DNA of 64,000 bases from Pseudomonadales bacterium (GTDB lineage Bacteria > Pseudomonadota > Gammaproteobacteria > Pseudomonadales > Azotimanducaceae). Below are positions 6,306 to 49,777 of the stretch, one piece after another. Each line of letters opens with the position of its first letter. Position 1 is the stretch's first letter. The notes beneath the pieces were generated by a model. The model was not told where the DNA came from. It searched no databases and was given only the letters and a program-made list of their open reading frames with translations. The translations under genes and the position numbers were made by a program. Location: assembly GCA_022827905.1 (NCBI GenBank), contig JAJEIQ010000061.1:1-64000 (forward strand), in the 5' to 3' direction.

Positions 6306-8078
<1,773 letters not shown>

Positions 8079-8087
8079 TTTCGGCTG

Positions 8088-33354: not shown

Positions 33355-36300
33355 TTATCTCTTCTCTTCGAGCCACTCGTACATCACGGGGAGCAAAACG
33401 AGCGTAAGCAGCGTCGATGTCACCAGCCCGCCAACCACCACGCCCGCCAACGGTCGCTGGGTTTCGGCCCCGACGCCGGTCGAGAGAAGCATCGGCACTA
33501 GGCCAAGGATGGCGACACTGGCCGTCATCAGCACGGGCCGCAGGCGGAGTTCCGCGCCGCGCCGCACTGCCTCTCGCACACTGGCGCCTTCGGCCCGTAG
33601 CTGGTTGACGAAGCTGACCAGCACGATGCCGTTCAGCATGGCCACTCCGAAGACGGCAATGAGACCGATGGCCGATGGCACCGACACGTGCTGTCCGCCG
33701 ATGAGCAGCGCGGCAATGCCGCCGATGGCGGCGAAGGGCACATTGGCAATGATCAAAGCCGCGTACCGGGCGGAATTGAACGCGGTGTACAACAGCACGA
33801 AGATGAGGAAGACGGTCAGTGGCACGATCACCGCCAGCCGTTGCAAGGCGCGTTGCTGGTTCTCGAAGGCGCCGCCCCACTCGATGGAGTAACCCGGCGG
33901 CAAATCGACGCTCGAAGCGATTGCCGCATCGGCTTCCCTTACGAAGCTGTCGACGTCTCGTCCGCGCACGTCCATCTGAATGACCGCGTAGCGGCTCAGG
34001 CGCTCGCGGCGCACGAAGGAGTAGCCCTCGGCGACGGTCACCTCCGCCACCGCTGATAGGGGCACGATGGCGCCGTCCGATGCCCGTAGCGGGATGCGTC
34101 TGATCGCCTCCACGGACGCCTTTGACGCGTCATCGAGCCGCACCGTGATGTCGAAGCGCCGGACGCCATCAAGCAGCGCCGACACCGGTTCGTTGCCGAT
34201 TCCGGTGCGCACCACCTCGAGGACCTCATCAGCGTTCATCCCGTACCGGGCGAGCCGGTCGCGGCGCACTTCGATGCGAATCTGAGGCTTGCCGAGATTG
34301 GCTTCGAGCGACAGGTCGGCAACGCCTTCCACTTCGGCCACCACGTCTTTGATTGCCGTGCTCAGCCGGTCGAGTTCGGCGAGGTCCTCGCCGTAGATCT
34401 TGACGGCCAGCGTCGCACGTACGCCGGAGATCAGCTCCTCCACGCGCATCTGGATGGGCTGGGTGAACGCGACCACGGTGGTTGGCGCCACGCGTTCAAT
34501 CTCCTCGCGCATGGCTTCGGCCAGGCTTGCGTAGTCGTGCTCGGACGGCCACTCGTCGCGCGGGCGCAGCGCCGTGTACACCTCCATGTAGTTCACGTCC
34601 ACGGTCTCGCCCTTTTCCGCCCGCCCGATCATCGCGACCGTTGACTCGACCTCCGCAAAGCTGCCCAGTGCGTTCTCGATCTCGATCGACACCGCGATCG
34701 ACTGGTCCAACGAGGTCGACGGGATGCCGGTGACCCGCCACATGATGTCGCCCTCTTGGAGCGTTGGCATGAACTCCCGGCCAAGGAAGGGGAACATCGC
34801 CAATGCGGCGACCAGTAAGGCCAGCGCGCCGCCCACCACCCTGCGCCGGTTGGCCAGCGACCAGGCCAGCAGCGGCAGATAGGCAGCCTTCGCCATCCGT
34901 AACAGCCAAGTGTCCCGTTCCTCCTTCGGCTTTACGAGGGCGGCGGAGAGCACCGGAATCAACGTTAGAGCGAGTAGCAGCGAACCCGCCATCGCGAAGG
35001 CTATGTTCAACGCCATCGGCTTGAACAGCTTGCCTTCAAGGCCCTCCAAGGTGAACAGCGGGATAAAGACCACAACGATGATGCCGATGGCGAACGCGAC
35101 CGGATTGGCCACCTCCCGGCCAGCGTCGAGCACCGCCGCGGCACGGTCCACCACCCCGCCACCGGAGCGCCGCTCCGCCATGGTACGGAAGGCGTTCTCC
35201 ACCATCACCACCGCGCCGTCCACCATCATGCCGATGCCGACTGCCAACCCGGCGAGGGACATCAGGTTGGCCGAAAGGCCAGCTTGGCCCATGCAAATGA
35301 ATGCGATCAGCATCGCCATCGGCAGTGCGGAGATCACCACCGCGGCGCAGCGCAGGTCGCCCAGGAACAGGAACAGCACCAAGGCGACCAGCACGGAACC
35401 CTCGACGAGCGCCCGGATGGCGGTCGAAGTGGCCTCGTCCACCAGTCGCGAGCGGTCGTACACCGGGCGGAGCACCACGCCTTCGGGCAGCGCATGCTCA
35501 AGCGCATCGACCCGTTCGCGCACGGCCTTCACGACGCCGGCGGCGTTCTCGCCGGTGCGTGACAGCGCCATCCCCAAGACCACCTCGCGGCCATCGCGGG
35601 TCACGGCGCCAAAGCGCGCTGCGCCGCCTTCGGCGATGTCGGCCACGTCGCGCAGAAACACCGGCGCGCCGTCCAGCACCTTCACCACGATCCCACCGAG
35701 GTCGTAGCCGTTGCGCACCAGACCCATGCCGCGCACGAGGTACTGCTCGGCGCCAAGATCCACGAACTGCCCGCCGACCTGACGGTTGTTCAGGGTAACC
35801 GCGCTGACCACGTCGGAGAAGCTTAAGTCGTAGGCGATCATCCGCATGGGATCGACCACCACTTGGAGTTGACGCTCGTGCCCGCCCCAAGACATCACGT
35901 CGTCCACGCCTTGGGCTGTTCGCAGCGTCAGCCGGACGGTCCAGTCGTGCAGCGTGCGCAGGTCCATGTCCGTCACGGCGTCCGCAAGCGCCTCGTCGGC
36001 GCGTTCCAGCGTGTACCAGAAAACCTGTCCGAGCCCGGAGGAATTCGGACCCATCTCCGGTGTGCCGTAGCCCTCGGGCAGCCGCTCGCCAACCTCCTGC
36101 AGCCGCTCCATGACGAGCCGCCGGGCGAAGTAAATGTCCATGTCGTCCTCGAAGTACACGGCGACATAGGACAGGCCGAACAAGCTCACCGACCGAATCT
36201 GGCTCACGCCAGGCAACCCGGCCAGCCCCGACTCCACCGGGAAGGTCAGCAACTGCTCCACGTCCTCGGCCGCGAGCCCCGGGGATTCCGTGTAAACGTT

Positions 36301-36441
36301 GACCTGGACCGGCGTGACGTCTGGGAAGGCGTCGATAGGCACCGTCCGCACCGCGCGCCAGCCGACGAAGGCCACGCCTGCCGAGGCGATGAGCACCAGC
36401 AACCGGTAGCGCAACGACAGTTCGACCAGTCCGCCAAGCAC
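33355..36441 (-). CDS. Heavy-metal RND efflux pump (CzcA/CusA family)
   Basis: A 1028-residue inner-membrane proton antiporter, the pump of a tripartite metal exporter. RND hallmarks are PIDAFPDVTPVQVNVYTE near the N-terminus, twelve predicted membrane helices and large periplasmic loops. The TM4 segment reads VGIGMMVDGAVVMVEN. It keeps the Asp and Glu of the CzcA proton relay (D408 and E415) but has Gly where CzcA has its first Asp (D402, in DFG). It is therefore not a standard zinc CzcA, and the substrate metal is uncertain. It is the last gene of the nine-gene metal operon, 41 bases after the adaptor. Confidence 0.93.
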   Translation of the reverse strand: MLGGLVELSLRYRLLVLIASAGVAFVGWRAVRTVPIDAFPDVTPVQVNVYTESPGLAAEDVEQLLTFPVESGLAGLPGVSQIRSVSLFGLSYVAVYFEDDMDIYFARRLVMERLQEVGERLPEGYGTPEMGPNSSGLGQVFWYTLERADEALADAVTDMDLRTLHDWTVRLTLRTAQGVDDVMSWGGHERQLQVVVDPMRMIAYDLSFSDVVSAVTLNNRQVGGQFVDLGAEQYLVRGMGLVRNGYDLGGIVVKVLDGAPVFLRDVADIAEGGAARFGAVTRDGREVVLGMALSRTGENAAGVVKAVRERVDALEHALPEGVVLRPVYDRSRLVDEATSTAIRALVEGSVLVALVLFLFLGDLRCAAVVISALPMAMLIAFICMGQAGLSANLMSLAGLAVGIGMMVDGAVVMVENAFRTMAERRSGGGVVDRAAAVLDAGREVANPVAFAIGIIVVVFIPLFTLEGLEGKLFKPMALNIAFAMAGSLLLALTLIPVLSAALVKPKEERDTWLLRMAKAAYLPLLAWSLANRRRVVGGALALLVAALAMFPFLGREFMPTLQEGDIMWRVTGIPSTSLDQSIAVSIEIENALGSFAEVESTVAMIGRAEKGETVDVNYMEVYTALRPRDEWPSEHDYASLAEAMREEIERVAPTTVVAFTQPIQMRVEELISGVRATLAVKIYGEDLAELDRLSTAIKDVVAEVEGVADLSLEANLGKPQIRIEVRRDRLARYGMNADEVLEVVRTGIGNEPVSALLDGVRRFDITVRLDDASKASVEAIRRIPLRASDGAIVPLSAVAEVTVAEGYSFVRRERLSRYAVIQMDVRGRDVDSFVREADAAIASSVDLPPGYSIEWGGAFENQQRALQRLAVIVPLTVFLIFVLLYTAFNSARYAALIIANVPFAAIGGIAALLIGGQHVSVPSAIGLIAVFGVAMLNGIVLVSFVNQLRAEGASVREAVRRGAELRLRPVLMTASVAILGLVPMLLSTGVGAETQRPLAGVVVGGLVTSTLLTLVLLPVMYEWLEEKR

Positions 36442-36482: not shown

Positions 36483-37616
36483 TCAGTGAGCATGGCCGCT
36501 GCCGAGCGAAGACTTGAGCAGCAGGGACTTGAGGTGAAAGACGCCCACCGACGCCACCCTGTCCCCTGCCTCAAGGCCGGCCTGCACGACAACTCGATCG
36601 CCGAGGCCGCGTCCTGTGGAGATGGGAACCGGGTGGAACTCATCGCCTTCCATCCGAAACACGGTCTGCCGGCCATCCAGCACGGTAATCGCGGAAGACG
36701 GAATGGCGAGGACCGGTTCAGCCGCTCCCGTTTCGAGTTCAACCTCCACGAACTGACCGGGGTGGAGGGCGTCGTCGGTGTTATCCACCTCGATCCGCAG
36801 GCCACGGGTGCGGGTGGCCTCGTCGAGCCGATGGTGGCGCTGGACGATCCGGCCGGCAATGCGGCTGCCATTGTCCGTCACGACGACTGCCGCATCGTCG
36901 CGTTGCACATCCGGGAGCTCGGCGGCGCGGGCTTCAACCCAGACCGTCGATTCGTCAACCACTTCAACCAGCACGCGGCCGGGCTCGATCAGCTCGCCAA
37001 TCACGAAGTCGTCGCTGAACACCGTGCCCGCGCGGGGGGCGAGCAGATCGAATTGTCCCGAGAAGGCGCCGAGACGGTCGGATGCGGCGAGCTCGCGGGC
37101 CTGTGCCTCCGTCAATCCGTAGCCGATCACCTTGGCCATCGCTTGGCGTTGGGCCGTCTCCGCTTCCGCGTATCGGCGTCCGGATACGGCTTCGGAACCA
37201 AGTGCGCGCACTAGGCGCCATTCGTAAGCGGCCAGCATGAGTTCGCCGGCCGCTTCGGCCATGGCGACGCTGGAGAGGCTGGCCAGCGGTTGACCCGCCT
37301 CGACCGCATCTCCGAGACGAACGTGGCGCGCCTCCACGACGGAAGGAATTTTGGGTGTGACGCGCGCCGAGCGGTAGCCGTTGACGATGACCTCTGCCGG
37401 CAACCGCGTAGTTGCGCGAACGGCCCGCAGGGCCACCCGCTCGATCTCTATCCCGGCCTCGATCCGCTCGTGCCGGCTCAGCGACACAGATCCGGCTTCC
37501 TCGTCGCCGTGCTCGTCTCCGGTCTCGCCGTTCGCCGTTGCCCAAACGCCAGCGGCCGTAAAACACGTGATCACAGCCCCTAGGCTCAGGCGCCTACTCG
37601 CCTTCATGTTCACCAC
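36483..37616 (-). CDS. RND periplasmic adaptor (membrane fusion protein, CusB/CzcB-like)
   Basis: A 377-residue adaptor bridging pump and outer-membrane channel. It has an N-terminal signal or anchor, then an acidic His-containing stretch (GDEHGDEEAGS), a barrel-sandwich region (HVRLGDAVEAGQPLASLSS, later FDLLAPRAGTVFSDDFVIGE), and a beta-barrel domain (ALHPGQFVEVELETG). The C-terminus ends GSGHAH. The His/Asp/Glu tails suggest metal binding, as in CzcB-type adaptors. Its start overlaps the end of the outer-membrane factor gene by 23 bases. Confidence 0.9.
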   Translation of the reverse strand: MVNMKASRRLSLGAVITCFTAAGVWATANGETGDEHGDEEAGSVSLSRHERIEAGIEIERVALRAVRATTRLPAEVIVNGYRSARVTPKIPSVVEARHVRLGDAVEAGQPLASLSSVAMAEAAGELMLAAYEWRLVRALGSEAVSGRRYAEAETAQRQAMAKVIGYGLTEAQARELAASDRLGAFSGQFDLLAPRAGTVFSDDFVIGELIEPGRVLVEVVDESTVWVEARAAELPDVQRDDAAVVVTDNGSRIAGRIVQRHHRLDEATRTRGLRIEVDNTDDALHPGQFVEVELETGAAEPVLAIPSSAITVLDGRQTVFRMEGDEFHPVPISTGRGLGDRVVVQAGLEAGDRVASVGVFHLKSLLLKSSLGSGHAH

Positions 37617-38904
37617 CTCCGTTCCTGCCGCGCATCCCCAGCCAGTCTTCCCAGCGGCCGGACGCCAGCAGCCACTCGAACCAAGCCTCCCAAACGGTAT
37701 GACGCAGGTCTAGGGCCTGCATCCGTAGTTCCGCAACCGATTCCACATGCCCGAGATAGTCCCGGGGATCGAGTTCGCCGGCCTCCCAAGACCGTCTGGC
37801 CAGTACTTCCCGGTCTTCCAGCGAGCCGGCGCCATCGCCTAGCCACCGCCGCCATGCGCGCCGGGCAATGCGGTAGCGTTCTGCGCTTGACTGGAAGCGG
37901 ACCAAGGCCCGGCGTGCGACGTCGTCGCTTTCGCGGGCTGCCGCAGTCGCGTCGGCGTTCGCTGCGGATACCGCGTGCGTACCGCGGTCGAGCACGGGGA
38001 GCGGCACCGATATGCCAAGCTCCGCGAGGCCGACTCCGGCTTCCCGGCCGACGCCCAAACTGAACGTGGGGTTGGGTCGGCGGTTGCGGGTCTCCTCGGC
38101 GGCCACCGCGGACGCGGCGCGGGCTCTCAACATCGCGGCGCGCACGGCCGGCAGTTCGGATATCGCCTCCATGGGCATCTCGGCGAGCGGAGGGAACTCG
38201 ATGTCCAGCGTCGGCCAGCCCGTCATGTCGTCGTGGAACGTCACCCGCCGCACCGCTTCCGCCGCCATCGTCCGTTGCGCCTCGGCGGCCGCCCGCCGCA
38301 TTCGCGTCTCGGCGAGCGCAAGCGTCGCCAAGTCCGCCTCCATGTGGCTGATGTCGCCGGCGTCCCGCTGTCGCTTGGCCAGCGACTCGAAGTCTGCCAT
38401 CGCCTCCTGTTGCGCTTCGAGCAGCCGGGCCCTGGCCGTTGCGGTCCGCCATCGGGCGAGCGCGTTCAGGAGTTCGCCGGCGGTTGCCCCTCTTAGGGTC
38501 TCGAGCTCCGCTTGGGCGACTAACTGCTGCGCCTCGGCGACTGTGACCCGCGCTTGGCGCTTGCCATGCAGGTCGAACTGCTTGGCCACGCCGACCACGA
38601 CTCTGCGCTCATTGTGGTGGCTGCCGCCAAAGGCGCCGATCTCTTCGGTCTGAATCGACAGTTCCGGATTGTCGTACGACCGTGCGGCACCGGCCCGCCG
38701 CTCCACGTGGGCGCGAAGACTCGACTCGGCGGCGAGGACGGCCGAATTGCTGGCCACTGCGTCGCGCACGAAGGATGCAAGATCGACTCGATCGTTCGCC
38801 GTCGCGGACAGTGCCAGCCATAGGAGCGCCGTTGCGCTCGTCGATCGGGCCGCCAAGTGCGCTTCCCGCGTTTGAGTGAATAGTCCTCGCTTGGATGGGG
38901 TCAC
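37594..38904 (-). CDS. Outer-membrane efflux factor (TolC/CzcC family)
   Basis: A 436-residue outer-membrane channel protein of the tripartite exporter. It has a duplicated helical layout: SYDNPELSIQTEEIG then a long helix pair, and NRRPNPTFSLGVGREAG then ISVPLPVLDRGTHAVSAANA, both typical of CzcC. The N-terminus (about residues 1-36) may hold a signal sequence (TALLWLALSATA) starting later than the annotated ATG. It lies 12 bases after the ZIP gene and overlaps the adaptor gene. Confidence 0.88.
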   Translation of the reverse strand: MTPSKRGLFTQTREAHLAARSTSATALLWLALSATANDRVDLASFVRDAVASNSAVLAAESSLRAHVERRAGAARSYDNPELSIQTEEIGAFGGSHHNERRVVVGVAKQFDLHGKRQARVTVAEAQQLVAQAELETLRGATAGELLNALARWRTATARARLLEAQQEAMADFESLAKRQRDAGDISHMEADLATLALAETRMRRAAAEAQRTMAAEAVRRVTFHDDMTGWPTLDIEFPPLAEMPMEAISELPAVRAAMLRARAASAVAAEETRNRRPNPTFSLGVGREAGVGLAELGISVPLPVLDRGTHAVSAANADATAAARESDDVARRALVRFQSSAERYRIARRAWRRWLGDGAGSLEDREVLARRSWEAGELDPRDYLGHVESVAELRMQALDLRHTVWEAWFEWLLASGRWEDWLGMRGRNGGGEHEGE

Positions 38905-38916
38905 CGCCGTCGCCCT

Positions 38917-39747
38917 TCAGTGGGTCCGCCCGCCATGGGCCGCCAACGCCTCAACGAAGTATAGCGCGTAGGCAAAGGAGACCCCGGCCAGGAGCGCCAG
39001 CAGGAGCTTGCCGCGGTCGTGCCGGTGGAAGTGGACCTCGGGCAGCAGGTCGCTCAGCGAAATGCACAGCAACGCACCCACGGCGAAGGCGAGCCCGTAT
39101 CCCAACACCGGACCTTCCAACGCTGCGGCGACCATTCCCGTGCCGACGTAGCTCGACACCGCGGCTAGGGGGCAGATGAGCGCGTAGCCGACGTTGGCGG
39201 CCAGCCGAGCGCGCCTTGGCTTGCCTTGCTGCTTCATGGTGCCGGTGATCGAGAAGGCGTCCAGCGGCTTGTGCAGCAAAATGGCCAAGCAGACACCAAG
39301 CCCGGGCAGCACTCCCTCCTCAGTCAGTCCGATGCGCACGCTTGCCCCGAGGGCGAATCCCTCCGTGACCGCGTGGATGCCCAAGCCCAAGGCAATCCCA
39401 GCCAAGCCGTGGCTGTTGTTCCCGGTGTGGCCGTGTGCGCTGGCCTCGTCGCTGAAGTCGTGCTGATGGAATTGGAACACGCGCAGCAGGACGACCATCG
39501 TGATCATCCCCCCCACGACCCACAGCATTGCGGCGTTCACCGGTTCGGGCCCGGGAATTCGTTCGAGGCTGTGGGGGAGGAGATGGAACAGGGCGACCCC
39601 TAGGATGAAGCCGGCGACCAAGCTCATCACGAGTTGGGTGCGCATGTGGGTCATTGCGCCGTACTCGGACAACCGCCCGCCGACCACGGACGCAGCGAAG
39701 ACCGCCCCCGAATAGGCGAGCAGCAGCACCGGCGGGGAGACGCTCAC
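38917..39747 (-). CDS. ZIP-family metal transporter
   Basis: A 276-residue inner-membrane protein with about eight helices. The ZIP metal-site helices are clear: HAVTEGFALGASV (TM4) and ILLHKPLDAFSI (TM5). A cytoplasmic-type loop has His clusters (FQFHQHDFSDEASAHGHTG). ZIP proteins usually bring Zn2+ or other divalent metals into the cytoplasm, so it is notable inside an efflux operon. It sits 15 bases after the small membrane protein gene. Direction and metal are inferred from the family only. Confidence 0.9.
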   Translation of the reverse strand: MSVSPPVLLLAYSGAVFAASVVGGRLSEYGAMTHMRTQLVMSLVAGFILGVALFHLLPHSLERIPGPEPVNAAMLWVVGGMITMVVLLRVFQFHQHDFSDEASAHGHTGNNSHGLAGIALGLGIHAVTEGFALGASVRIGLTEEGVLPGLGVCLAILLHKPLDAFSITGTMKQQGKPRRARLAANVGYALICPLAAVSSYVGTGMVAAALEGPVLGYGLAFAVGALLCISLSDLLPEVHFHRHDRGKLLLALLAGVSFAYALYFVEALAAHGGRTH

Positions 39748-39762: not shown

Positions 39763-40251
39763 CTAGAAGAATAGCGTGAGCAGCACGATGCTGGCCACGC
39801 CGCCCGCCATGAATCCGATCGCGCTGACCACGCCCGCGGCGGTCGCCATGTCGGCGATGCGGAACGTCTGGTTCTCCACAGTGAACAGCACTTGGGTGCG
39901 GTCGATCTCCCCGTCCACGAAGCGCTTCAGGCCAGTCTCCGCGCCATGCGCCTCCTTGATCGCCACCAGCGCCACTAGGATCATGGTTGACGCCGACGCC
40001 AGGATGCCGATGCCGAAGACCACCAGAGTCAGCAGCGCGAACCAGTGGTACGGGGGATCATCCGCGCCCCCGGATGCGCTCATGATGCCGATGATCAGCG
40101 CCGCGCCGCCAGCATTGCCGAGCAGCAGCAGCCGGGTGGACTCGGTGATCAAACGGAACATCACGCCCCGTCGCTGGGCGACCACCTTGTAGAGTTCCCG
40201 CAGCCACTCCTCGCCGGTCTCCTCGACGGAGAATTGGTCCATGCGCTTCAT
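39763..40251 (-). CDS. Small membrane protein of unknown family in the metal operon
   Basis: A 162-residue protein with three to four hydrophobic helices (around residues 43-60, 68-97 and 131-162). The N-terminus is soluble (MKRMDQFSVEETGEEWLREL) and a middle loop is charged (KEAHGAETGLKRFVDGEIDR). I do not recognise the family. Its ATG overlaps the stop of the solute-binding protein by four bases, so the two are probably made together. Confidence 0.75.
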   Translation of the reverse strand: MKRMDQFSVEETGEEWLRELYKVVAQRRGVMFRLITESTRLLLLGNAGGAALIIGIMSASGGADDPPYHWFALLTLVVFGIGILASASTMILVALVAIKEAHGAETGLKRFVDGEIDRTQVLFTVENQTFRIADMATAAGVVSAIGFMAGGVASIVLLTLFF

Positions 40252-41426
40252 GGGTTGCCTCCCTCCGCGCTGTCCGCTTCGGCTTCCGGGCCGAAGTGGG
40301 TCAGGCGCACGTACTTGGACCCGGCGTTCGACTCAGGCGCGAAGGCCACTGTCCAGTCGTCGATGCGCACCGGTTCCGTCGGCTTCGCTTCGGTCATGAA
40401 GGCCGTGCGGGTGACCTCGCCGTCAACGCGCTCGAGGGTGGATGCCAGATAGCGTCCGAGCAGATAGCCCTCCAGTGAGACTTCGTTCATGGCCGGTTCA
40501 TCCGATGCCGCGTGGGTCGCCATCGCGCGTCGAAAGTTGGTGGCGAGCGCACTCTCCGCATCGGTCGGATTCGGAACCACCTCGGTCATCAGAATTCGGT
40601 CGCTGGGCGCTTCCACCCGTCGCCGAAGCTCCGAGGAAAGCGAGAACGACAGGTTGGCCAGCGTGTAGTCATGGCCCAACGAGTGCGCCAAATTGATGAT
40701 CTCGGAATTGGCGGCGTAGGCGCCGACCAGCAGGATAGCTTCCAGATCCGCCTTGGCGAGGCCGAACAGGCTGGCGTGGACCGCGTGGGTGTTCCGCGAG
40801 TAGGTGGTCTTTGCCAGCAGCGGGATGTCCTGCTCCGCCAGTGCGGCGAGATAGCTGCGCATCACCGAGCGGCCGAACGCATCGTCTTGGTAGATGATGC
40901 CGAGCCGCTTGTGGCCGCGCTCTTCGACGATGTTGGCTACCAAAGCCCGCACCTCGTCGAAGTAGCTCGCCCGCAGGTTGACCACGTTCGGAAACCGCGC
41001 CGCATCGTGCAGGAAGTCGGCGCCCGTCACGTGGCCCACGAAGGGGATGCCCGCGGTCCGCAGCACTGGTGCGATCCGGGCCGCGGTCGGCGTTCCCACG
41101 CCACCGACCACCGCCAGCACGTCGTTTGCCGCCGCGAACTGCTCCGCGTTCGCCGCTGCCTGTTCCGGTTCGTAGCCATCGTCAAGCGCGACCAGTTCAA
41201 GGTTGCGTCCGTTGACGCCGCCTGCGGCGTTGCGTTCCGCGAAGGCGGTGAGGATGCCCGACCGGTAGTCGATGCCGAGACGCCGGTTGGGGCCAGAGAA
41301 GCAAGCGCTCTGGCCGAACACCACCGCTTCCGTGGTCACTCCAGGTCCCGCCACTGCCGGCCATGCGGTTAAGCTGGCTGCGGCAAGGCATAGGAACCGC
41401 AAGGCTCCCTTACCCATCATGGCCAT
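40248..41426 (-). CDS. Orphan periplasmic binding protein (branched-chain amino acid / LivJ type)
   Basis: A 392-residue protein with a signal peptide (LRFLCLAAASLTAWPAVAG) and a type I periplasmic-binding fold: VVFGQSACFSGPNRRLGIDY, then AVVGGVGTPTAARIAPVL and a second lobe with HKRLGIIYQDDAFGRSV. LivJ-type proteins normally feed an ABC importer, but no ABC permease or ATPase gene is nearby. Here it is embedded between HflK-like and small-membrane-protein genes, with a 17-base overlap upstream, and may act as a periplasmic sensor or partner of the SPFH/permease complex. Ligand unknown. Confidence 0.85.
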   Translation of the reverse strand: MAMMGKGALRFLCLAAASLTAWPAVAGPGVTTEAVVFGQSACFSGPNRRLGIDYRSGILTAFAERNAAGGVNGRNLELVALDDGYEPEQAAANAEQFAAANDVLAVVGGVGTPTAARIAPVLRTAGIPFVGHVTGADFLHDAARFPNVVNLRASYFDEVRALVANIVEERGHKRLGIIYQDDAFGRSVMRSYLAALAEQDIPLLAKTTYSRNTHAVHASLFGLAKADLEAILLVGAYAANSEIINLAHSLGHDYTLANLSFSLSSELRRRVEAPSDRILMTEVVPNPTDAESALATNFRRAMATHAASDEPAMNEVSLEGYLLGRYLASTLERVDGEVTRTAFMTEAKPTEPVRIDDWTVAFAPESNAGSKYVRLTHFGPEAEADSAEGGNP

Positions 41427-42714
41427 CCGAACCGCCCTTATTGTTCTGCGGGGTTTCTTCAGGAATTGTGTCCACGAGTGGCTTCTGCGCCGGACGCTCC
41501 TCCACCGCCGGACCCGTGCGCCCGACGTGTCCGTGGGCGAAGATCGAAGGCGAATCGAAGATCAGGGAGCGCGGCGCGGCCGCCGCCAAGTGGTCCCGCT
41601 CCGCTCGTCTATCGTGGAAACGCCCGTCCATGGTGAGTTGGTCGAGTTCCACGTCGCCGCCCGCATGCAAGTCCCTCGGCGCAGTGGACGCAACCAGGGT
41701 CCGTTCTTCGCCAAGTTCCCTGGCCGCTCCGGGTGGGGTGGCGACGGCCAAGTCGAAGGGCGGCGCGCCAATGCCGTCGATCATGTTGATGTCGATGGTG
41801 GAGGCGTCGCCTGGGTTCACCGCCGCAAGGCTCGCTTGGGAGAAGATGGTGCGCATCCGCTGCCAGTAGCGCGTGACGGCCACTTGTTCCGGCTCGCTGC
41901 GGTACTCGGCCAGCAGGGCGCGAAAGGCCTCAGCGGCGCTCTTGGCCTGCTTGAGGCGTTCCTCGGCCCGCGCCTTGGCGTTGAGCACCAAGGATTCGGC
42001 TTGGCCGCGGGTGCGGGCGAGATAGCGTTCGCTGCGCCGGTTTGCCTCGCTCTCCGCCTGGGTTCGCTCAGCGATGGCATCGTTGACGTCGCGGAACGCG
42101 GCCATCGTCTCGTCGATGGGCCGCACGTCCACGATGGTCAGCGCTGCGACCTCGATGCCAATTCCGTATGCCGCGACCCGTTCAGCGATGTCCTCGAATA
42201 GGTGCGCCTCGATGATGTTGCGGTTGCTGGTGAAGATCAGGTCGATGAAATTGCTGCCGAGCGCATCGACCAGCGCCTCCCGAACAAGCATCGTCATCAG
42301 CTTCTCGGGCTCGGCGGCGGTGTGCAGGTAGTTGTGCAGATTGTCGATCACGTACTGGACGGCCACTTCGACCTCCAGCAGATTGGTGTCGCCCGACAGG
42401 ATCGTGAAGTTGACCTTGTCCCCATTCTTGCTGGCCACCCCGAGGCGTGCGATGCGCTTCACTGGGCGGATATGCGCCTCCTCGATCACCGGAATGCGGT
42501 AGCGCCAGCCGGGGCCGACCTCGGCATCCACCACCTTGCCGAATCGTGTGCGAACCGCCTGCTCCTCTTTTTTGACAATGTAGAAGCCGCTTGTTAGCAG
42601 AGCAACGAGGCCGACCATGGCGGACCAAGCTAGAATGTGTCCCCAGTGGCGCCCGACGAAGTCGAACGACGCGTAGATCGCGCGGGTGCTTGGCGGCAGC
42701 GGCTCGTCGGCCAT
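41410..42714 (-). CDS. SPFH-domain protein, HflK-like
   Basis: A 434-residue single-pass membrane protein (helix at about 27-47) with an SPFH/band-7 domain: GFYIVKKEEQAVRTRFGKVV, PGWRYRIPVIEEAHIRPVKR, and VEVAVQYVIDNLHNYLH, as in HflK. The coiled coil carries ANRRSERYLARTRGQAESLV. The C-terminal tail (about 100 residues) is unlike HflK of E. coli. It is adjacent to an HflC-like gene, as hflK is to hflC, but it lies in a metal operon and not in the usual hfq-hflX-hflK-hflC locus. It is therefore probably a specialised paralogue. Whether it touches FtsH is unknown. Confidence 0.85.
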   Translation of the reverse strand: MADEPLPPSTRAIYASFDFVGRHWGHILAWSAMVGLVALLTSGFYIVKKEEQAVRTRFGKVVDAEVGPGWRYRIPVIEEAHIRPVKRIARLGVASKNGDKVNFTILSGDTNLLEVEVAVQYVIDNLHNYLHTAAEPEKLMTMLVREALVDALGSNFIDLIFTSNRNIIEAHLFEDIAERVAAYGIGIEVAALTIVDVRPIDETMAAFRDVNDAIAERTQAESEANRRSERYLARTRGQAESLVLNAKARAEERLKQAKSAAEAFRALLAEYRSEPEQVAVTRYWQRMRTIFSQASLAAVNPGDASTIDINMIDGIGAPPFDLAVATPPGAARELGEERTLVASTAPRDLHAGGDVELDQLTMDGRFHDRRAERDHLAAAAPRSLIFDSPSIFAHGHVGRTGPAVEERPAQKPLVDTIPEETPQNNKGGSDGHDG

Positions 42715-43613
42715 TACGGGCTCCCCGGCATGGCGCGGCTGTCCAGGTAGCGGAACAGTTCGCTGTCCGCGGGGAGCATGAGCGTGGTGTTCTCGTCGAT
42801 GATGAGGTCGTAGCTGTCCAGCGCCCGGATGAATTCGTAGAAGTCCGGATCCTCGCGGTAGGCCTCACCGAGCAGGGCCATCGCCTCCGCCTCCGCATTG
42901 CCGAGAATCACCGTTGCCTCCGCGTGGGCCTCCGCGACCAGTTTCTCGTGCTCGTTGACCGCCAGCGCCTCAATGCGCATGGCCACCTCCTCGCCCTCGG
43001 CGCGGTAGCGCGAAGCGATGCGGGCGCGTTCCGAGACCATGCGCTGGATCACGCTTGGCCGGTTCTCCGGGGGCAGGGTGTACTCCACCACCCCGGCGCG
43101 CATGACCTCGATGCCGTAGTTGGCCAATGCCACGGGGGCGACGCGCTCGAGAATTTGGTCGGATGCCTGATCGAATTCCTCGTGTTCAAGCCCCAATCCG
43201 ATGAACGCTTCGCGGGCCTTGTTGCTGACCACGATGCCGACGCTGGACAAATAGACGTCGCGCAGCTTCTCCAGCGCGTTCTCATCGGTGCGGATGGCCT
43301 CGACAAACAGGATGGGATCCACCACCCGCCACAGCAGGTAGCCGTCCACCAGCACGCTCTTCTGATCCTCCGTGATCAGTTCCTGGGGCAGGTCCGTCAT
43401 GGTCTGCATGCGGCGATCGACCTTATAGACTCTGGACACCGGGCGCGGCCACTTGAGGTGGAAGCCGGGCTGCCGCACCGGTGGCGCAATCCGGCCGAAG
43501 TGGGTCAGCACACCCTGCTGCGTCTCCCGGATGATGTAGAAGCTGTCATACAGGATGGCCAGCGCCAACGCGGCGCCGACGGTCCAGAGCGTTGCCTTTC
43601 CGGTTCGCGTCAT
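42714..43613 (-). CDS. SPFH-domain protein, HflC-like
   Basis: A 299-residue band-7 protein. The start at 43613 (MTRTGKATLWTVGAALALAI) overlaps the permease-SPFH stop by four bases. One membrane helix is followed by SFYIIRETQQGVLTHFGRIA, QPGFHLKWPRPVSRVYKVDR, and the coiled coil MVSERARIASRYRAEGEEVA, which matches the HflC signature (ERxRIAxxxRAEGEE). The end DPDFYEFIRALDSYD is also HflC-like. It pairs with the HflK-like gene just downstream. Confidence 0.88.
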   Translation of the reverse strand: MTRTGKATLWTVGAALALAILYDSFYIIRETQQGVLTHFGRIAPPVRQPGFHLKWPRPVSRVYKVDRRMQTMTDLPQELITEDQKSVLVDGYLLWRVVDPILFVEAIRTDENALEKLRDVYLSSVGIVVSNKAREAFIGLGLEHEEFDQASDQILERVAPVALANYGIEVMRAGVVEYTLPPENRPSVIQRMVSERARIASRYRAEGEEVAMRIEALAVNEHEKLVAEAHAEATVILGNAEAEAMALLGEAYREDPDFYEFIRALDSYDLIIDENTTLMLPADSELFRYLDSRAMPGSP

Positions 43614-45913
43614 CGTTTTGTCCCTCCGTGGTGGCCGTTGCCGGCTGCACCGGATCGGCGCTTCCAGAGCGCCACCTTGTCGAGGCTGCCTTCGTTGGGC
43701 ACGATCACCTTGGCGTTGCCGGACAGGGCGGATTCCAGCTTCTCCCGCCACAGCATGTTCCGCAGCACCTCCGGGGCGGTGCGGGTTGCCCCCGCCACCG
43801 CCGAGATCGCCTCCGCTTCCGCCCGTGCGCCCGCCAGCTTGCGGAACGCCTGCCCTTGCGCTTGTTCCACCTCGTAGAACGCGTTGCCGTAGGCTTGCGG
43901 AGTCAGCGCGACCAGCAGGCGTTGCGCGTTCACGATGATCCGCTCCCGGTCCTCCTGGGCGCTCGACACCTCGCGGAAGGCGCTGGCCGTCTCCGCGGTC
44001 GGGCTCACGTCCACCAGATTCGCCTTCACCAGTTCGATTGAGTTGAGCACGGGATCCCGGCCTTCTATGGGCTCGTCGAACAGTGCCCGGATGTGGTCCT
44101 CCAGCGGGCCGCGGTGGGCGTTGAGCAGCGGCTCCAGGCGCTGCGCCGATATGAACGAGCGCATGTGGCCGAAGATGAAGGCGGAAATCACGCGTTCCGG
44201 ATCGGTGGTCCGGTAGTGGTAGATGTAAGGGTCCGACACGCGATATTGCACGTTCACGGTGAACGACATCAGGTTCAGGTCGCCGGAGACGAACTCATGC
44301 CCGTCGTCGGACATGATTGACTTCACTTCGCGGATCGGCCAGTGGTCCACCTGCACGAAGGGGCGGGGAGCCAGATAGTGCAGCCCGGGCGGCAGGTCGC
44401 GCCACCACACCTGGCCGAACAGCAGGCCGTAGCCCACCGAGCCGGGCGGCACCCGAGTGAAGCCGGAACCGAGGAACACCAGAAGCGCAGCGCCCAACAG
44501 CGCGGCGCCCGCCGGTGTATTGGGTACCACGGCTCCCGCCAGTGGACGCCCACGGGTGAGCCGCATCCAGAGTTCGGCGAGCCGTCGACCGACCGGGCGC
44601 ATGTTGAGCATCAGATCGTCGTAGCCGCTCTTGAGCGCTCCGGCCCGGAACCGCCACACGATCAGCGCAGCCAAGCCGATGGCGCCGCCGATCTGGAGAG
44701 CGAGAATCGCCGGCGAGTCCGACGCCTCGAGATTTACCGCGATCGACAGGCCTGCAGCCAGCAGCAACAGGTCAATCGCGATGCCCAGCACGACCGTGAC
44801 GGCGATCACCGCAGCGACATAGACGGCTGTGAACCGAGCGCCGAATTGGCTCACTATGATCGCGATTGTGCCGGTGTTGGTTGCCGGACCCGTCATCAGG
44901 AACACCAAGGCCGCCCCTGGGCTGACGCCCTTGGCCACCAGCGCCGCAGCAATGGGCGTGCTGGCCGACGCGCAGATGTAAAGCGGAATGCCGATCAGCA
45001 CCATGACCGGGTACGACAGCCAGCGCGCGTATTCGTGAGCCATCAAGTCCGCCGGGATCGCCAGGTACAGGATGCCGCCGAGGGCGATGCCCACTAGGAG
45101 CGCAAAGAGAATGTCGTCGGCGATCTCGACGAATCCGTAGCGGAACACGTGCCGGACCACCGTGGGAAAGTCGGGGCCTTGAACGGCCGCGTCGTCGTGC
45201 GGGTCCTGCGCCGAAGACTCGCCAGTCGGCGACGGCGCGGCTTCTCGGTAAAAGTCCGGCTTTAACCATGCGGCGTGCCGCCATCGGCCAGCGGCGGAGG
45301 TCAGACCGCGGAGCCAGCGTCCCGCGAAGCCGCGCAGCTGGGCGAAGCTGACGTAGCAGTCGTCCCGATCCGGCATCAGCGACTCATGGGCGCCGTGATC
45401 GTCATGTCCGTGATCGTCATGTCCGTGATCGTGCCCGCCGTGGTCGTGGCCGTCCCCGTGGCTGTGGCCGGGCTCGGCCTGGCCGTGACCTTTGGAGTCG
45501 TCGCGGATCAGCCCGATGCAGAAGATGCCGGCAACCACTGCAGTCAAGAAGCTGATGACCGGCCGCACGATCGCGACGATCGGCCCAAAAAAGGCGTTGG
45601 TCACCAAGATCGAGTCGGCTCCCGTTTCCGGTGCCGTGATGAGGAAGGACATGCACGAGGACCGGGAGGCGCCCTTCCGGCGCATCTCGGCAACCACGGG
45701 CACCACCGAGCAGCTGCACAGGGGCATCGGCACGCCAATGCCCGCGCTGGTCGCCACGGACTTGAGGCTGTCGTCACGGAACCAGCTAAGAATCGCCTCT
45801 CGCGATATGAAGACGTGGATCACGCCGGAAAGGAAAAGCCCCAGCAGAAGCATCGGGGAAAGCAGCAGGAAGGACGACCATAGAAAATCCAGGAACTCGA
45901 CCGCTGCATTCAT
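43610..45913 (-). CDS. Cu/Zn-type permease (SO_0444/ArsP-like) fused to an SPFH domain
   Basis: A 767-residue fusion. Residues 1 to about 425 form a permease of the DUF318/SO_0444 metal-efflux group. The first helix bundle holds GVPMPLCSCSVVPVV (Cys66 and Cys68) and ITAPETGADSI. A His/Asp-rich loop (about 143-176) follows, then a second bundle holds YICASASTPIAAALVAKG and MTGPATNTGTIAIIV. Residues about 465-767 form a membrane helix plus SPFH/band-7 domain of HflK type (RVPPGSVGYGLLFGQVWWRD, FTVNVQYRVSDPYIYHYR, a coiled coil with YGNAFYEVEQAQGQAF). I know no standard protein with this layout. It is the first gene of the nine-gene metal operon. Metal export is inferred from the permease family. 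Confidence 0.88.
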   Translation of the reverse strand: MNAAVEFLDFLWSSFLLLSPMLLLGLFLSGVIHVFISREAILSWFRDDSLKSVATSAGIGVPMPLCSCSVVPVVAEMRRKGASRSSCMSFLITAPETGADSILVTNAFFGPIVAIVRPVISFLTAVVAGIFCIGLIRDDSKGHGQAEPGHSHGDGHDHGGHDHGHDDHGHDDHGAHESLMPDRDDCYVSFAQLRGFAGRWLRGLTSAAGRWRHAAWLKPDFYREAAPSPTGESSAQDPHDDAAVQGPDFPTVVRHVFRYGFVEIADDILFALLVGIALGGILYLAIPADLMAHEYARWLSYPVMVLIGIPLYICASASTPIAAALVAKGVSPGAALVFLMTGPATNTGTIAIIVSQFGARFTAVYVAAVIAVTVVLGIAIDLLLLAAGLSIAVNLEASDSPAILALQIGGAIGLAALIVWRFRAGALKSGYDDLMLNMRPVGRRLAELWMRLTRGRPLAGAVVPNTPAGAALLGAALLVFLGSGFTRVPPGSVGYGLLFGQVWWRDLPPGLHYLAPRPFVQVDHWPIREVKSIMSDDGHEFVSGDLNLMSFTVNVQYRVSDPYIYHYRTTDPERVISAFIFGHMRSFISAQRLEPLLNAHRGPLEDHIRALFDEPIEGRDPVLNSIELVKANLVDVSPTAETASAFREVSSAQEDRERIIVNAQRLLVALTPQAYGNAFYEVEQAQGQAFRKLAGARAEAEAISAVAGATRTAPEVLRNMLWREKLESALSGNAKVIVPNEGSLDKVALWKRRSGAAGNGHHGGTKR

Positions 45914-46208: not shown

Positions 46209-48413
46209 CTAGAACACCACGCGCACCCCGCCTTCGATGGTCCGACCCGGCTGCGGGGCAACGTCCTTGATGTAGGAGGTGTGGTTGCGCTGCTCCGCAT
46301 CGGTCAGGTTGCGGCCTTCCACGAACAGGCTGATTTCGGTGGCGCCGACCGCAATGTGCCAGTCCATGTAGGCGCGCAGATCGTCGTAGCCGCTGGTGGC
46401 CAGTTCGTGGTCCGTTACGTCGTCCTGGCTGAAGGCGCGCAGGTAGTCCATGGCGAAGATGAACGGGCCATGGGTCAGCTCGAAGCCGGCGCCCACCCGG
46501 CTCGGCGGAATCCGCGGCAGATTGTCGTTGCCGGAGGTATCCAACTCCGCGGAAACGGTGTCGGCGAAGGCGGAAAGCGCCAACTGACCATCGGTCCAGA
46601 CCATCGCCACGACGGACCCTTCCACCTCGAAGCCGGTGAAGGTGGCATCACTCTGGGTGAACTGCCGCACGGGCAGGCCATGATCTTCGATGCCGGTGTC
46701 CGCTTGGTAGATGAAGTCGGAAAACTCGGTCCAGTAGAGGGTGCCGGCCAGCGACCAGCGTTCGCCCGCGTACTTCAGCGTGGCGTTCAAGTCGAAGGCC
46801 TTCTCTTCGTCGAGGTCCGGGTCACCGATGTCAAAGCTCTGGGTGGCGAAGTGCGGCCCATTGGAGTACAGCTCCTCGCTGACCGGCATGCGGGTGGCGT
46901 AGCTGCCGAGCAGGGTGCCCGTCCAGCCTTGTGCAAGGGGAATCACGGCGCCTAGGGATGCAGATACGCCGCTGAACGTTTCGTTGTTCCCCGAGTCGGG
47001 GTCGTGTTTGGTGCGGTCGAAGCGCAGCCCCGCTTCCAGTTGAAAGGGTTCGAAGTCGCGCTGACCCATCCAGAACAGCCCCAGCGCATCCGTGTTTGCC
47101 GGCGGGGAGAAGGCCTCCTCCCCGGTTGGCGTATATTTGCGGTCGCTCAATTGAGCGCCGAAAACCCCGTCCCAGCCCGCGATGGGGTTGTGGGCCAACT
47201 CCAGGCGCGCTTCCCAAGCCTCGTTTTCAAACAGCGTGCCCACTTCGCCGGATGGCTCAATCTCGGCGTGTTCGTAGTCGTTGATGCCGACCCGGAGACT
47301 CAAGCTGCGGATGCCGGGCAGGGGCTGGTCAATGCCCGCTTCAAGGTCGATGCGCGTTTGCTCGAGATCGGCAACCGGCGAGCCTTCCGCTTCGTCGCCG
47401 TGGTCCTCTTCGTCATCGTGGCCCTCTTCCTCCTCTTCCTCGTCGTGGTCCTCTTCTTCTTCCTCGTCCCCGTGATCTTCCTCCTCGTCCCCGTGTTCCT
47501 CCTCGTCGCCGTGGCCATGGGCGAAGCCAGGCAGCCCGTAGTCGGATTCCAAGCGACTCACTGAGATGCCGAAGAAGCCGCGCTCACCGATGAATGAAAA
47601 GCCGACGGCGCCGCCCTTGGCCTCAAGATGGCTGTTCGGCAGGGTGCCGCGCACTTCCTCGGCTTCGCCCTCCTCATGCCCGTCATCTTCATCCTCATCT
47701 TCGTCTTCGTCGTGGTGCTCCTCCTCCTCCTCATGCTCTTCCTCATCCTCAAGAGCGGCCCGGAACCGGGAGGATCGAACGAAGCCAGGGATGTCCACGT
47801 CATCAGCGTCGCGGGCAAAGCCGTCGATGTGCCAGGCAAATGCCCCGGCACCGCCATCCAAGCGAAATCCGCCACGGAAGGCATCGCCGTTGTCGGCTCC
47901 GCGTAGGTCCAGCTTGCCGGTCAGAGCATCCGGTATTTCCCGGGGCACCCGGCCGGTGTGTACGTCGATGACGCCGCCGATTGCGCCTGAGCCGTAGAGC
48001 AGAGTTGCGGGGCCCTTGAGAATCTCGATCTCGTTGGCTATGAAGGGGTCCACCGACACAGCATGGTCACCGCTCGAGACGGAGACGTCCATGGTGTCCA
48101 CATGGTCCTCCATGATGCGCACTCGAGCCCCGTCCAATCCGTGAATGACGGGCCTGCCAACCGCAGGACCAAACGATGTCGCGTGAATGCCGGGCTCACG
48201 CCCGACGGTGGCGCCGATGGTGTCCGCGACTTTGCGGTCGAGCTCCTCGCCCCGCAGCGCCTCCACGGGTTGCGCAACGCCGCCAGAGGACAAGGGGTGG
48301 GCGGTGACTACGATTTCCTCGATTTCGTACCCGTGCCGCTCTTGACCGACCGCTCCTTCGAGCGCGGCTAGGCATAGGCCGAACGTCAGCGTCAGCCGAT
48401 AGGCGGTTTTCAT
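46209..48413 (-). CDS. TonB-dependent receptor with His/Asp/Glu-rich loops (ZnuD-like)
   Basis: A roughly 734-residue outer-membrane transporter. The ATG at 48413 is preferred because AGGAGGG lies just upstream. A signal peptide leads to the TonB box (YEIEEIVVTAHPL), the plug (GRPVIHGLDGARVRIMEDHV, GPATLLYGSGAIGGVIDV) and a barrel ending in EGGVRVVF. Two extracellular-type loops are extremely rich in Glu, Asp and His (DNA about 47655-47750 and 47385-47519), as in zinc receptors of the ZnuD type, where such loops collect metal. Zinc is the likeliest substrate by this analogy. It precedes the nine-gene metal operon and follows a small Cys/His protein gene. Confidence 0.92.
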   Translation of the reverse strand: MKTAYRLTLTFGLCLAALEGAVGQERHGYEIEEIVVTAHPLSSGGVAQPVEALRGEELDRKVADTIGATVGREPGIHATSFGPAVGRPVIHGLDGARVRIMEDHVDTMDVSVSSGDHAVSVDPFIANEIEILKGPATLLYGSGAIGGVIDVHTGRVPREIPDALTGKLDLRGADNGDAFRGGFRLDGGAGAFAWHIDGFARDADDVDIPGFVRSSRFRAALEDEEEHEEEEEHHDEDEDEDEDDGHEEGEAEEVRGTLPNSHLEAKGGAVGFSFIGERGFFGISVSRLESDYGLPGFAHGHGDEEEHGDEEEDHGDEEEEEDHDEEEEEEGHDDEEDHGDEAEGSPVADLEQTRIDLEAGIDQPLPGIRSLSLRVGINDYEHAEIEPSGEVGTLFENEAWEARLELAHNPIAGWDGVFGAQLSDRKYTPTGEEAFSPPANTDALGLFWMGQRDFEPFQLEAGLRFDRTKHDPDSGNNETFSGVSASLGAVIPLAQGWTGTLLGSYATRMPVSEELYSNGPHFATQSFDIGDPDLDEEKAFDLNATLKYAGERWSLAGTLYWTEFSDFIYQADTGIEDHGLPVRQFTQSDATFTGFEVEGSVVAMVWTDGQLALSAFADTVSAELDTSGNDNLPRIPPSRVGAGFELTHGPFIFAMDYLRAFSQDDVTDHELATSGYDDLRAYMDWHIAVGATEISLFVEGRNLTDAEQRNHTSYIKDVAPQPGRTIEGGVRVVF

Positions 48414-48492
48414 GTTCCCTCCTGGCAACCGGTGCGCGGTTGCAGTGAATTTGCGCTAGGTGCGCGTTCAACAAGGCCTTAGTGGATTGTTG

Positions 48493-48901: not shown

Positions 48902-49777
48902 TTAGTGCGCATGGACGTCATGGGAGTGTGCTACATCGCCGATCAACGCCATGACCACGATGCCCGCAACGACGAGCAGGAACTTGAAAATGCGGTCGTT
49001 GTCTTGGGTCGGCATGGGCACGTCGTCGTTGCCGGTCAAGGCGCTCATCACGAACTTGGCCGTCCGCGCTTCCCGCTTGGAGAACTCCTCGTCGATGATG
49101 TCCAGGATGGCGATGTAGATGAAGGTGCCCGCTGCCAGCGCATTGAAGCTGCCTTCGACTAGCGCGGCGCCGTCGCCATGCAGGATGCTGGCGCCGAGCA
49201 TGCCCGCGAGTATGCCCGCGGGGGTCATGGCGACGAAGAAGCCGAGAAGGGCGTTGCGGCGATTTTCGGCAAAGCCGGCGCTGATCGCGCTTACCATCAG
49301 CGCGAAGGCCTCCGAGCCCTTGTGCAGCAGAATTCCGAGCGCGAGGATGATGGCGGTTGCAGCATGGCTCTCAAGGCCTAGCGAGAGGCCCGCGATGATC
49401 GAGTGGACCGACAGGAGCAGCAGCAGCACAAGCGGGTAAATGGATCTGCCTTGGACTGCATCCGAGTCCGAATGGATGTGCCGGCCATCGAAGATGATGC
49501 GGTCAATCAGCAGCAGCGTTCCGAATCCCGAGGCCGCCAGGAGGGGAGCTAGCGGATACTCCACGACGTTCGCAAGCTGCTCGATGCCCTCGGGCAGCAG
49601 GTGGATGAAGCCCACGCCGAGGAACAAGCCGCCGGCAAACGCATTGCCTAGGGAGAAGAACCTCTGACTGCCTTGGTAGCGGGCGGCGGCCATTGGAATG
49701 GCGCCGCCGATCAGGGCAACGGCTAGGATGGATGCGGCCGCGATGAACTTAATGACCGGCAGCGAGTGTTCTTCCAT
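48902..49777 (-). CDS. ZIP-family metal transporter (second copy)
   Basis: A 291-residue membrane protein with about eight helices and ZIP metal-site helices SVHSIIAGLSLGL (TM4) and ILLHKGSEAFALMVS (TM5). It has a short loop with GRHIHSDSD and a C-terminal HSHDVHAH tail. It differs clearly from the other ZIP protein in the island (HKGSEAF against HKPLDAF), so this is not a recent duplication. It resembles eukaryote-like ZIP1-type bacterial proteins. Transport of Zn2+ or a similar metal is inferred from the family. Confidence 0.9.
   Translation of the reverse strand: MEEHSLPVIKFIAAASILAVALIGGAIPMAAARYQGSQRFFSLGNAFAGGLFLGVGFIHLLPEGIEQLANVVEYPLAPLLAASGFGTLLLIDRIIFDGRHIHSDSDAVQGRSIYPLVLLLLLSVHSIIAGLSLGLESHAATAIILALGILLHKGSEAFALMVSAISAGFAENRRNALLGFFVAMTPAGILAGMLGASILHGDGAALVEGSFNALAAGTFIYIAILDIIDEEFSKREARTAKFVMSALTGNDDVPMPTQDNDRIFKFLLVVAGIVVMALIGDVAHSHDVHAH

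Follow-up and report, generated by a model that had tools for sequence, protein, structure and literature searches.

SPFH scaffold domains normally form membrane cages. SO_0444 permeases are defined by the paired Cys motifs of their two halves, and the C-terminal cytoplasmic part of CDF transporters is their dimer domain. Among the described systems closest to the locus reported here is the E. coli HflK-HflC cage with FtsH (PDB 7vhp, 7wi3, and 9cz1), which shares with it K-type and C-type SPFH subunits and a TM helix followed by the SPFH domain. Another is the P. aeruginosa operon PA2439-PA2438-PA2437-PA2436-hmtA(PA2435)-PA2434, which is bound by Zur (Zur shifts the PA2439 promoter) and, when znuA is mutated, is upregulated 5.6- to 14.4-fold (PMC4542158, PMC8531726). 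PA2438 and PA2439 are higher in zinc-depleted proteomes (PMC11761036), and HmtA is described as an importer, with hmtA mRNA constantly low and unrepressed by zinc in one study (PMC8531726). In the available portions of these sources, FtsH modulation is the only role given for the HflK/HflC genes of this zinc-responsive operon. Full-text searches of the open-access literature, judged mostly from their listings, brought up no description of an SPFH-transporter fusion (subscription journals lie mostly outside that scope), and the words transporter, permease, cation, metal, and fused do not occur in the main text of PMC2636767.

The fusion locus lies in the window, a 64,000-nucleotide stretch of contig JAJEIQ010000061.1 from a Pseudomonadales bacterium (GCA_022827905.1), and differs from E. 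coli HflKC by an extra K-type subunit, an N-terminal transporter, and a metal operon (Table 1). The fusion of a permease to a band-7 domain put forward in the original prediction at 43610..45913 was confirmed by matches to Pfam (ArsP_1 at residues 6-380, 138.5 bits; Band_7 at 507-664, 41.2 bits) and NCBIfam (NF033936 SO_0444 at 12-419, 319.4 bits, above the cut-off of 300), and the frame is indeed uninterrupted, with 767 codons free of stops. The CSC motif is found at residues 66-68, and the predicted His-rich loop and the membrane helix at the join are present as well. The CSC and CASASTP motifs are both retained, and C66, C68, and C314 are unchanged across six relatives (three fused, three unfused). 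Export of Cu/Zn by the protein is predicted from its family membership, and no CDF domain was found in it by Pfam and NCBIfam searches. The linker at 421-466 has 9 K+R vs 3 D+E. Against the HflK model TIGR01933, the fused SPFH domain scores 114.8 bits over 499-741, under the cut-off of 159.4, and residues 474-743 match E. coli HflK 86-348 (PDB 7vhp) with an E value of 3.6e-17. Both K-type SPFH proteins of the locus fall under the family cut-off; they are K-type by descent, and an HflC gene follows the fusion. The predicted structure of the fusion is good over the SPFH domain only (pLDDT block means of 68-85 over residues 471-690; overall mean 56.7, pTM 0.33).

Table 1. Features of the fusion locus and adjoining genes in the window
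Feature	Coordinates	Strand	Remarks
Fusion protein: SO_0444-type Cu/Zn permease, linker, TM, HflK-like SPFH	43610..45913	(-)	767 aa
SO_0444 permease part	44657..45880	(-)	Residues 12-419
His/Asp-rich loop of permease	45374..45505	(-)	About residues 137-180, read from sequence
Arg/Lys-rich linker and junction TM helix	44453..44653	(-)	Helix about 467-487
HflK-like TM, SPFH, and helical region	43685..44494	(-)	Residues 474-743
HflC-like partner, C-type SPFH, 299 aa	42714..43613	(-)	TIGR01932 157.8 bits (cut-off 134.4), scored with the extended frame 42714-43751
Second HflK-like partner, K-type SPFH, 434 aa, long C-terminal tail	41410..42714	(-)	TIGR01933 149.2 bits, under cut-off 159.4
Periplasmic binding protein (Peripla_BP_6), 392 aa	40248..41426	(-)	Same position in G002 and G014
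Orphan, 162 aa, about 4 predicted TM helices	39763..40251	(-)	Kept in G002 and G014
ZIP family metal transporter	38917..39747	(-)	Pfam/NCBIfam
Outer-membrane efflux protein (OEP)	37594..38904	(-)	Part of the CzcCBA-like set
RND periplasmic adaptor	36483..37616	(-)	TIGR01730 above cut-off; CzcB model TIGR00999 112 bits, under cut-off 319
CusA/CzcA family heavy-metal RND pump	33355..36441	(-)	TIGR00914 1065.8 bits, cut-off 701
ZnuD-like TonB receptor, next gene upstream of fusion	46209..48428	(-)	396 bits, under ZnuD cut-off 950
Second ZIP transporter, upstream	48902..49777	(-)	Pfam/NCBIfam

The separate HflC- and HflK-like partners expected beside the fusion adjoin it directly. The ATG of the HflC-like gene overlaps the fusion-gene stop (4 bases), and the HflC-like and HflK-like genes overlap by 1 base. 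The order FUS-HflC-HflK-PBP-4TM-ZIP-OEP-MFP-RND is common to the window and the two other fusion genomes, G002 and G014. In the window, intergenic gaps across the nine genes are -23 to 41 bp. The OEP, adaptor, and RND pump form a CzcCBA-like efflux set downstream, and the 162-aa orphan has no match in Pfam or NCBIfam. In the G014 stretch no TonB receptor was found ahead of the fusion gene; in G002 the receptor is divergent. No Zur box (consensus GTTATANNATAAC) was found in the window at ≤2 mismatches, and scans for sigma-70 promoters and terminators were at chance level.

Full-length copies of the fusion occur in G002 (90% identity) and G014 (86%), so that it was found in 3/97 genomes searched, its own included. 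The three genomes belong to two genera, one of the two others being of a different genus. Carriers are rare, at 2/9 genomes of the genus and 2/390 of the order. The absence of the same fusion from every other genome had been named in the original prediction as grounds for refutation; the fusion is present in these two, and the covalent joining of the permease to the SPFH domain is confirmed and conserved in three genomes. Across the linker and junction helix, dN/dS is 0.03-0.19, a sign of purifying selection on the join. Among the long segments, conservation is lowest at residues 140-255, where the His/Asp-rich loop lies. Among 200 genomes of the phylum, 25 matches in 22 genomes were above the NF033936 cut-off, with frames of 349-531 aa for 24 of them and 772 aa for that of the window. 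The 767-aa protein with its C-terminal SPFH domain is accordingly not one of the stand-alone permeases of about 350-530 aa typical of the family. None of the six closest unfused permeases has an SPFH gene nearby, and none of 72,556 plasmid records has a single place covering 80% of the fusion. Recent acquisition of foreign DNA gave no signal (GC 0.659 vs 0.652 and 0.647 in the flanks).

In related trios of fused SPFH, HflC, and HflK, a CDF metal-exporter domain (TIGR01297, PF01545) takes the position of the permease. These trios occur in Alphaproteobacteria and other Gammaproteobacteria (four of the latter), and one is on an Aquibium plasmid. HflC and HflK follow the CDF-SPFH gene at 9/11 genome-contig loci, and the remaining two end at contig edges. 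Both HxxxD pairs expected of the CDF metal site are present in all 16 trio CDF domains; those of L110, L147, and L187 are under the TIGR01297 cut-off and above that of PF01545. In the stretches examined, no metal genes of the window or Aquibium type adjoin the trios of G654, G369, and G232, apart from their own CDF, and no P-type ATPase lies by L076 or L077. The predicted CDF-SPFH structure (mean 36.2) gave no usable model. The CDF domain at this position is a point absent from the original prediction.

A third type (type c, L191-L196) has the gene order long SPFH, HflC, third SPFH, and heavy-metal P-type ATPase, the last present at 6/6 loci and above the TIGR01525 cut-off in each. In the long SPFH protein of these loci, the membrane domain differs from those of the window and CDF trios in being neither permease nor CDF: it has no Pfam match over cut-off (6/6), and hhalign probabilities against both are under 1%. 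The idea that the three N-terminal domains (a, b, and c) are diverged members of a single family was not supported (hhalign 0.6, 0.1, and 0.5%, with thin alignments). A Zur-like box precedes the first gene at 5/6 type c loci vs 0/3 window-type loci. The hmtA operon likewise has three HflK- and HflC-like SPFH genes beside a metal transporter in an order matching type c, a likeness resting on gene order and family names, whereas HmtA is an importer and SO_0444 and CDF are export families.

The K-C-K arrangement, with the first gene N-terminally extended by a membrane domain, is shared by the window, L033, L034, the CDF loci, and L191-L196. In a 101-row tree, SPFH1 and SPFH3 group with K-type and SPFH2 with C-type sequences (split 100/100), and the 17 trio SPFH2 sequences form one branch (support 91/81, not starred). 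A single origin is absent from the best tree and is not rejected for SPFH1 (p-AU 0.093) or SPFH3 (p-AU 0.145), with long branches flagged.

With a permease, a CDF domain, or a third module in the same trio, a membrane-module-SPFH subunit with HflC and HflK looks like a modular, metal-linked complex, and in some bacteria metal transporters seem to be built straight into SPFH cages. For the window, we lean towards a three-SPFH complex in which the fusion gene supplies the subunit that bears the transporter, with the exporter held in an HflKC-like oligomer and linked to metal partners. The linker is basic and hence probably cytoplasmic, which would put the SPFH domain on the periplasmic side, where HflK and HflC have theirs. 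An HflKC-like ring or cage would be made of K- and C-type subunits in alternation, with the unfused HflK diluting the bulky fused subunit, and would keep the exporter clustered in one defined part of the membrane. Exported Zn/Cu may then pass to proteins inside or beside the cage (the binding protein and RND adaptor), and the same scaffold may set FtsH access. Counted for this complex were the kept fusion and gene order, dN/dS, the tight gaps, HflK homology, the CDF and type c trios, and the K/C split. Counted against it were a fusion model confident over SPFH only, an unusable CDF-SPFH model, a single trio origin outside the best tree, rarity, the HmtA importer vs export families, low hmtA mRNA unrepressed by zinc, trios without metal neighbours, unfused permeases without SPFH, and 0/3 Zur boxes. 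More tentatively, and with somewhat less than even expectation, there may be a general class of transporter cages, HflKC-like K-C-K SPFH assemblies with a swappable transporter (SO_0444, CDF, or the third module) on a K-type subunit. These would wall off a periplasmic compartment that receives exported metal and from which the metal is captured, re-imported, or passed to an RND pump. The gene itself specifies the cargo here, since two unrelated metal exporters are joined to SPFH at an equivalent position, each within a trio of the same make-up; this bears on roles of bacterial SPFH scaffolds besides FtsH modulation. If the complex forms, SPFH function and organised metal export could be tested in it directly.

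The main rival is control of FtsH access, which we consider unlikely: the SPFH domain would tie the permease to FtsH, and HflC and HflK would protect it or deliver it for degradation as metal supply changes, with no channelling. HflK/HflC oligomers are reported to interact with FtsH (PMC2636767); FtsH is described as a protease that depends on zinc, and zinc depletion raises the trio of P. aeruginosa (PMC4542158, PMC9431628). However, no FtsH-type domain was found among the operon proteins scanned, the source genome already has its own canonical hflKC (L002), and the added PBP, ZIP, and RND genes would be left unexplained. It is more doubtful still that SPFH is a plain oligomerisation tag holding transporter monomers together and, in the CDF version, standing in for a missing cytoplasmic dimer domain. 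In L068, TIGR01297 is matched over 2-198 of 285 only, so the C-terminal part of the CDF model is missing, and TM and SPFH follow instead; yet a tag does not account for the HflC and HflK partners present in every trio with a complete stretch. A functionless chance or assembly fusion of adjacent genes, with which the rarity in the order would agree, is very improbable and already contradicted by three separately assembled genomes with 86-90% identity over the full length, by purifying selection over the join, and by CDF domains occupying the same fusion site elsewhere; on the first two grounds a frame or assembly artefact, which the original prediction had called not obvious, was rejected.

A second-HflK lead in G141, G317, G335, and G064 was rejected, since the genes there are hflKC with neighbours that, identified by eye, resemble miaA-hflX-hisZ-purA. 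At 13 loci of the order (L148-L160) a second, unfused HflK-HflC pair was found, in no case with a transporter module; the ten pairs placed in the tree group with L063 in a separate clade on both the K and C sides.

The fusion gene reads through without a stop as one protein, and separate HflC- and HflK-like partners are encoded beside it, both as claimed in the original prediction. In a PDB search, fusion residues 474-743 were aligned to E. coli HflK 86-348 (7vhp, E 3.6e-17), so the junction helix coincides with the membrane helix of HflK. The linker (421-466) has 9 Lys/Arg vs 3 Asp/Glu; by the positive-inside rule, we infer from the sequence that the linker would be cytoplasmic and the SPFH domain periplasmic. 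The SPFH domain of HflK/HflC is reported as periplasmic (PMC2636767). The AlphaFold model of the fusion is good over the SPFH domain only, with block means of 68-85 for 471-690 against 56.7 overall, and is uninformative about assembly.

Domains of the fusion protein and genes around it (window positions or fusion residues)
Feature	Position	Model or family	Bits and cut-off
Fusion gene, 767 aa	43610-45913 (-)
Permease	residues 6-380	ArsP_1 (Pfam)
Permease	residues 12-419	SO_0444 Cu/Zn efflux (NCBIfam)	319.4, cut-off 300
SPFH	residues 507-664	Band_7 (Pfam)
SPFH	residues 499-741	HflK (NCBIfam)	114.8, below cut-off 159.4
HflC-like gene		TIGR01932	157.8, over cut-off
Second HflK-like (third SPFH) gene	41410-42714	HflK	149.2, slightly below cut-off
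Binding protein	40248-41426	Peripla_BP_6
Orphan, 162 aa, ~4 TM	39763-40251
Next in order		ZIP, OEP, RND adaptor, CusA/CzcA pump
Upstream TonB receptor	46209-48428	ZnuD-like	396, cut-off 950

The genes form an operon-like run. The stop of the fusion gene overlaps the ATG of the HflC-like gene, which in turn overlaps the second HflK-like gene, giving a K-C-K trio, and the intergenic gaps behind it are -23 to 41 bp. Upstream are a second ZIP gene and the ZnuD-like receptor, whose His/Asp/Glu-rich loops are very long. A further hflKC of this genome (L002) groups with canonical ones. The binding protein is of the Leu/Ile/Val type in a run without ABC partner genes; in 3/3 fusion genomes, it and the orphan separate the SPFH genes from the ZIP gene. 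The third SPFH protein has a C-terminal tail of ~110 residues past the SPFH homology, as in G002, another fusion genome. TTGACATAT is found upstream of both window 45913 and position 9721 of L033, another window-type locus (214 and 128 bp ahead of the start codon), and is possibly the operon's own promoter; in L034, also of this type, it is missing from the 484 bases examined upstream of the gene.

Each domain of the fusion is already known. Searches of an open-access library, which lacks most subscription papers, found no K-C-K trio in which one subunit joins a metal exporter covalently to SPFH. The trio is rated as a variant form of HflKC-type complexes; a bolder reading would be a general class of transporter cages. 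With its SPFH domain facing the periplasm, the fusion may join a mixed oligomer of K- and C-type subunits with the unfused HflK as spacer; the SPFH oligomer would cluster the exporter, and metal would be handed to periplasmic partners. The main rival is FtsH control by the SPFH complex, perhaps acting alongside the scaffold role.

The fusion recurs with another exporter. On a plasmid of Aquibium oceanicum, hflK-hflC-hflK is followed by PPIase, heavy-metal P-type ATPase, PCuAC, and SCO genes, and the first "HflK" (515 aa) consists of CDF (PF01545, 89 bits) and Band_7 (73.5 bits). Scanning genome_contigs (84,980 species) with this CDF-SPFH protein gave 11 loci (10 full-length, 1 broken by a contig end) titled Rhizobiaceae, Chelativorans, Nitratireductor, Ahrensia, Oricola, Aminobacter, Tianweitania, Carideicomes, Allosediminivita, and a Hyphomicrobiales MAG, all of them Alphaproteobacteria. 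All three SPFH genes are present in 9 of the 11; the contig ends in HflC in L072 and within the fused gene in L078. A P-type ATPase lies behind the trio in 4/7 tabulated CDF loci, L078 being cut by the contig end and L076 and L077 having none in the stretch read. Gammaproteobacterial CDF-SPFH-HflC-HflK trios were found in G538 and G654 (HflC profile, 369 genomes of the class) and in G369 and G232 (390 genomes of the order; 1/40 in the family of G232), counts that are lower bounds because the thresholds were strict; the G232 trio escaped the CDF-SPFH profile search that gave G369. PF01545 is over cut-off in 7/7 CDF-SPFH proteins scanned with Pfam, TIGR01297 in L068 and under cut-off in L110, L147, and L187. 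Both HxxxD motifs, the metal-site residues of CDF transporters, are present in 16/16 CDF-SPFH proteins. L068 is without the C-terminal part of CDF, since the model match ends at position 198 of 285, followed by a TM helix and SPFH.

A third trio type came from family f21 of the window's order, where 6/69 genomes have a second HflC match. At each of the six loci, a long SPFH protein (called at 660-713 aa) is accompanied by HflC, a third SPFH, and a heavy-metal P-type ATPase that exceeds the TIGR01525 cut-off. In none of the six does the N-terminal part of this long protein match a Pfam model over cut-off; it has ~6 hydrophobic segments in the 3 examined. The loci resemble P. aeruginosa PA2439-PA2438-PA2437-PA2436-HmtA-PA2434 by gene order and family names. 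Five listed genes of this operon rise 5.6- to 14.4-fold when znuA is mutated (PMC4542158), the PA2439 promoter is shifted by Zur (PMC8531726), and PA2438 and PA2439 are raised in zinc-depleted proteomes (PMC11761036). Against a zinc link, hmtA mRNA is described as constantly low and unrepressed by zinc in PMC8531726, and HmtA is an importer whereas SO_0444 and CDF, the two fused modules identified, are export families. Near the start, 5/6 f21 loci carry a Zur-like palindrome (1-2 mismatches), equalled in 0 to 1.3% of 300 single-base shuffles; in L192, L193, and L195 the frame is called from its most upstream start and has the palindrome 37-91 bases inside it, which would require a true start further down. 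The sixth locus has chance-level matches only, and 0/3 window-type loci have the palindrome.

In a 101-row SPFH tree (L065, L066, and L069-L074 excluded beforehand), every trio has its SPFH1 and SPFH3 on the HflK side and its SPFH2 on the HflC side (split 100/100). The HflC-side tree, excluding L064 as well, has the 17 trio SPFH2 on one branch (91/81, below the starred level); the best tree does not unite window and CDF types on their own (p-AU 0.111). In the K-side tree, keeping 7 canonical and 5 second-pair rows, single origin was neither rejected nor demonstrated for SPFH1 (p 0.093), SPFH3 (p 0.145), or both jointly (p 0.344). Long branches were flagged in all trio trees. These sequence comparisons fit a single ancestral trio with swapped membrane modules; repeated fusion may have occurred instead, and profile comparison, with thin profiles, found no kinship among the three N-terminal modules. 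Several genomes of the order have a second unfused HflK-HflC pair (L063, L148-L160); those placed in the tree cluster as a clade of their own, separate from canonical hflKC and the trio.

The fusion is conserved. The original prediction had asked for other genomes with it, and of 97 searched (the window's own, 8 of its genus, 52 of its family, and 36 of its order), full-length copies are in 3: own, G002 (90%), and G014 (86%, different genus), with identical gene order from the fusion through the RND pump. Over SPFH, dN/dS is 0.056-0.07; over the linker and junction helix it is 0.03-0.13 (window pairs) and 0.095-0.19 (G002-G014). The loosest long segment is 140-255, holding the His-rich loop (0.14-0.31); the sole higher value is 0.376 for the 22-residue C-tail in one pair. 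An artefact is ruled out by the three genomes, the shared gene order, and the low dN/dS across the join. The fusion is present in 2/390 genomes of the order and 2/9 of the genus. A scan of 200 genomes from the phylum gave 25 NF033936 matches over cut-off, spread over 22 genomes, with frames of 349-531 aa, the window's 772 being the sole exception. In the stretches read, no SPFH gene lies near six close unfused permeases (53-74%; G015, G047, G044, G032, G312, G382), three of which adjoin a ZIP gene. At another locus, L040, ~2.5 kb separates a same-superfamily permease (6944-8704, 586-aa frame) from a TonB receptor of ZnuD-like type.
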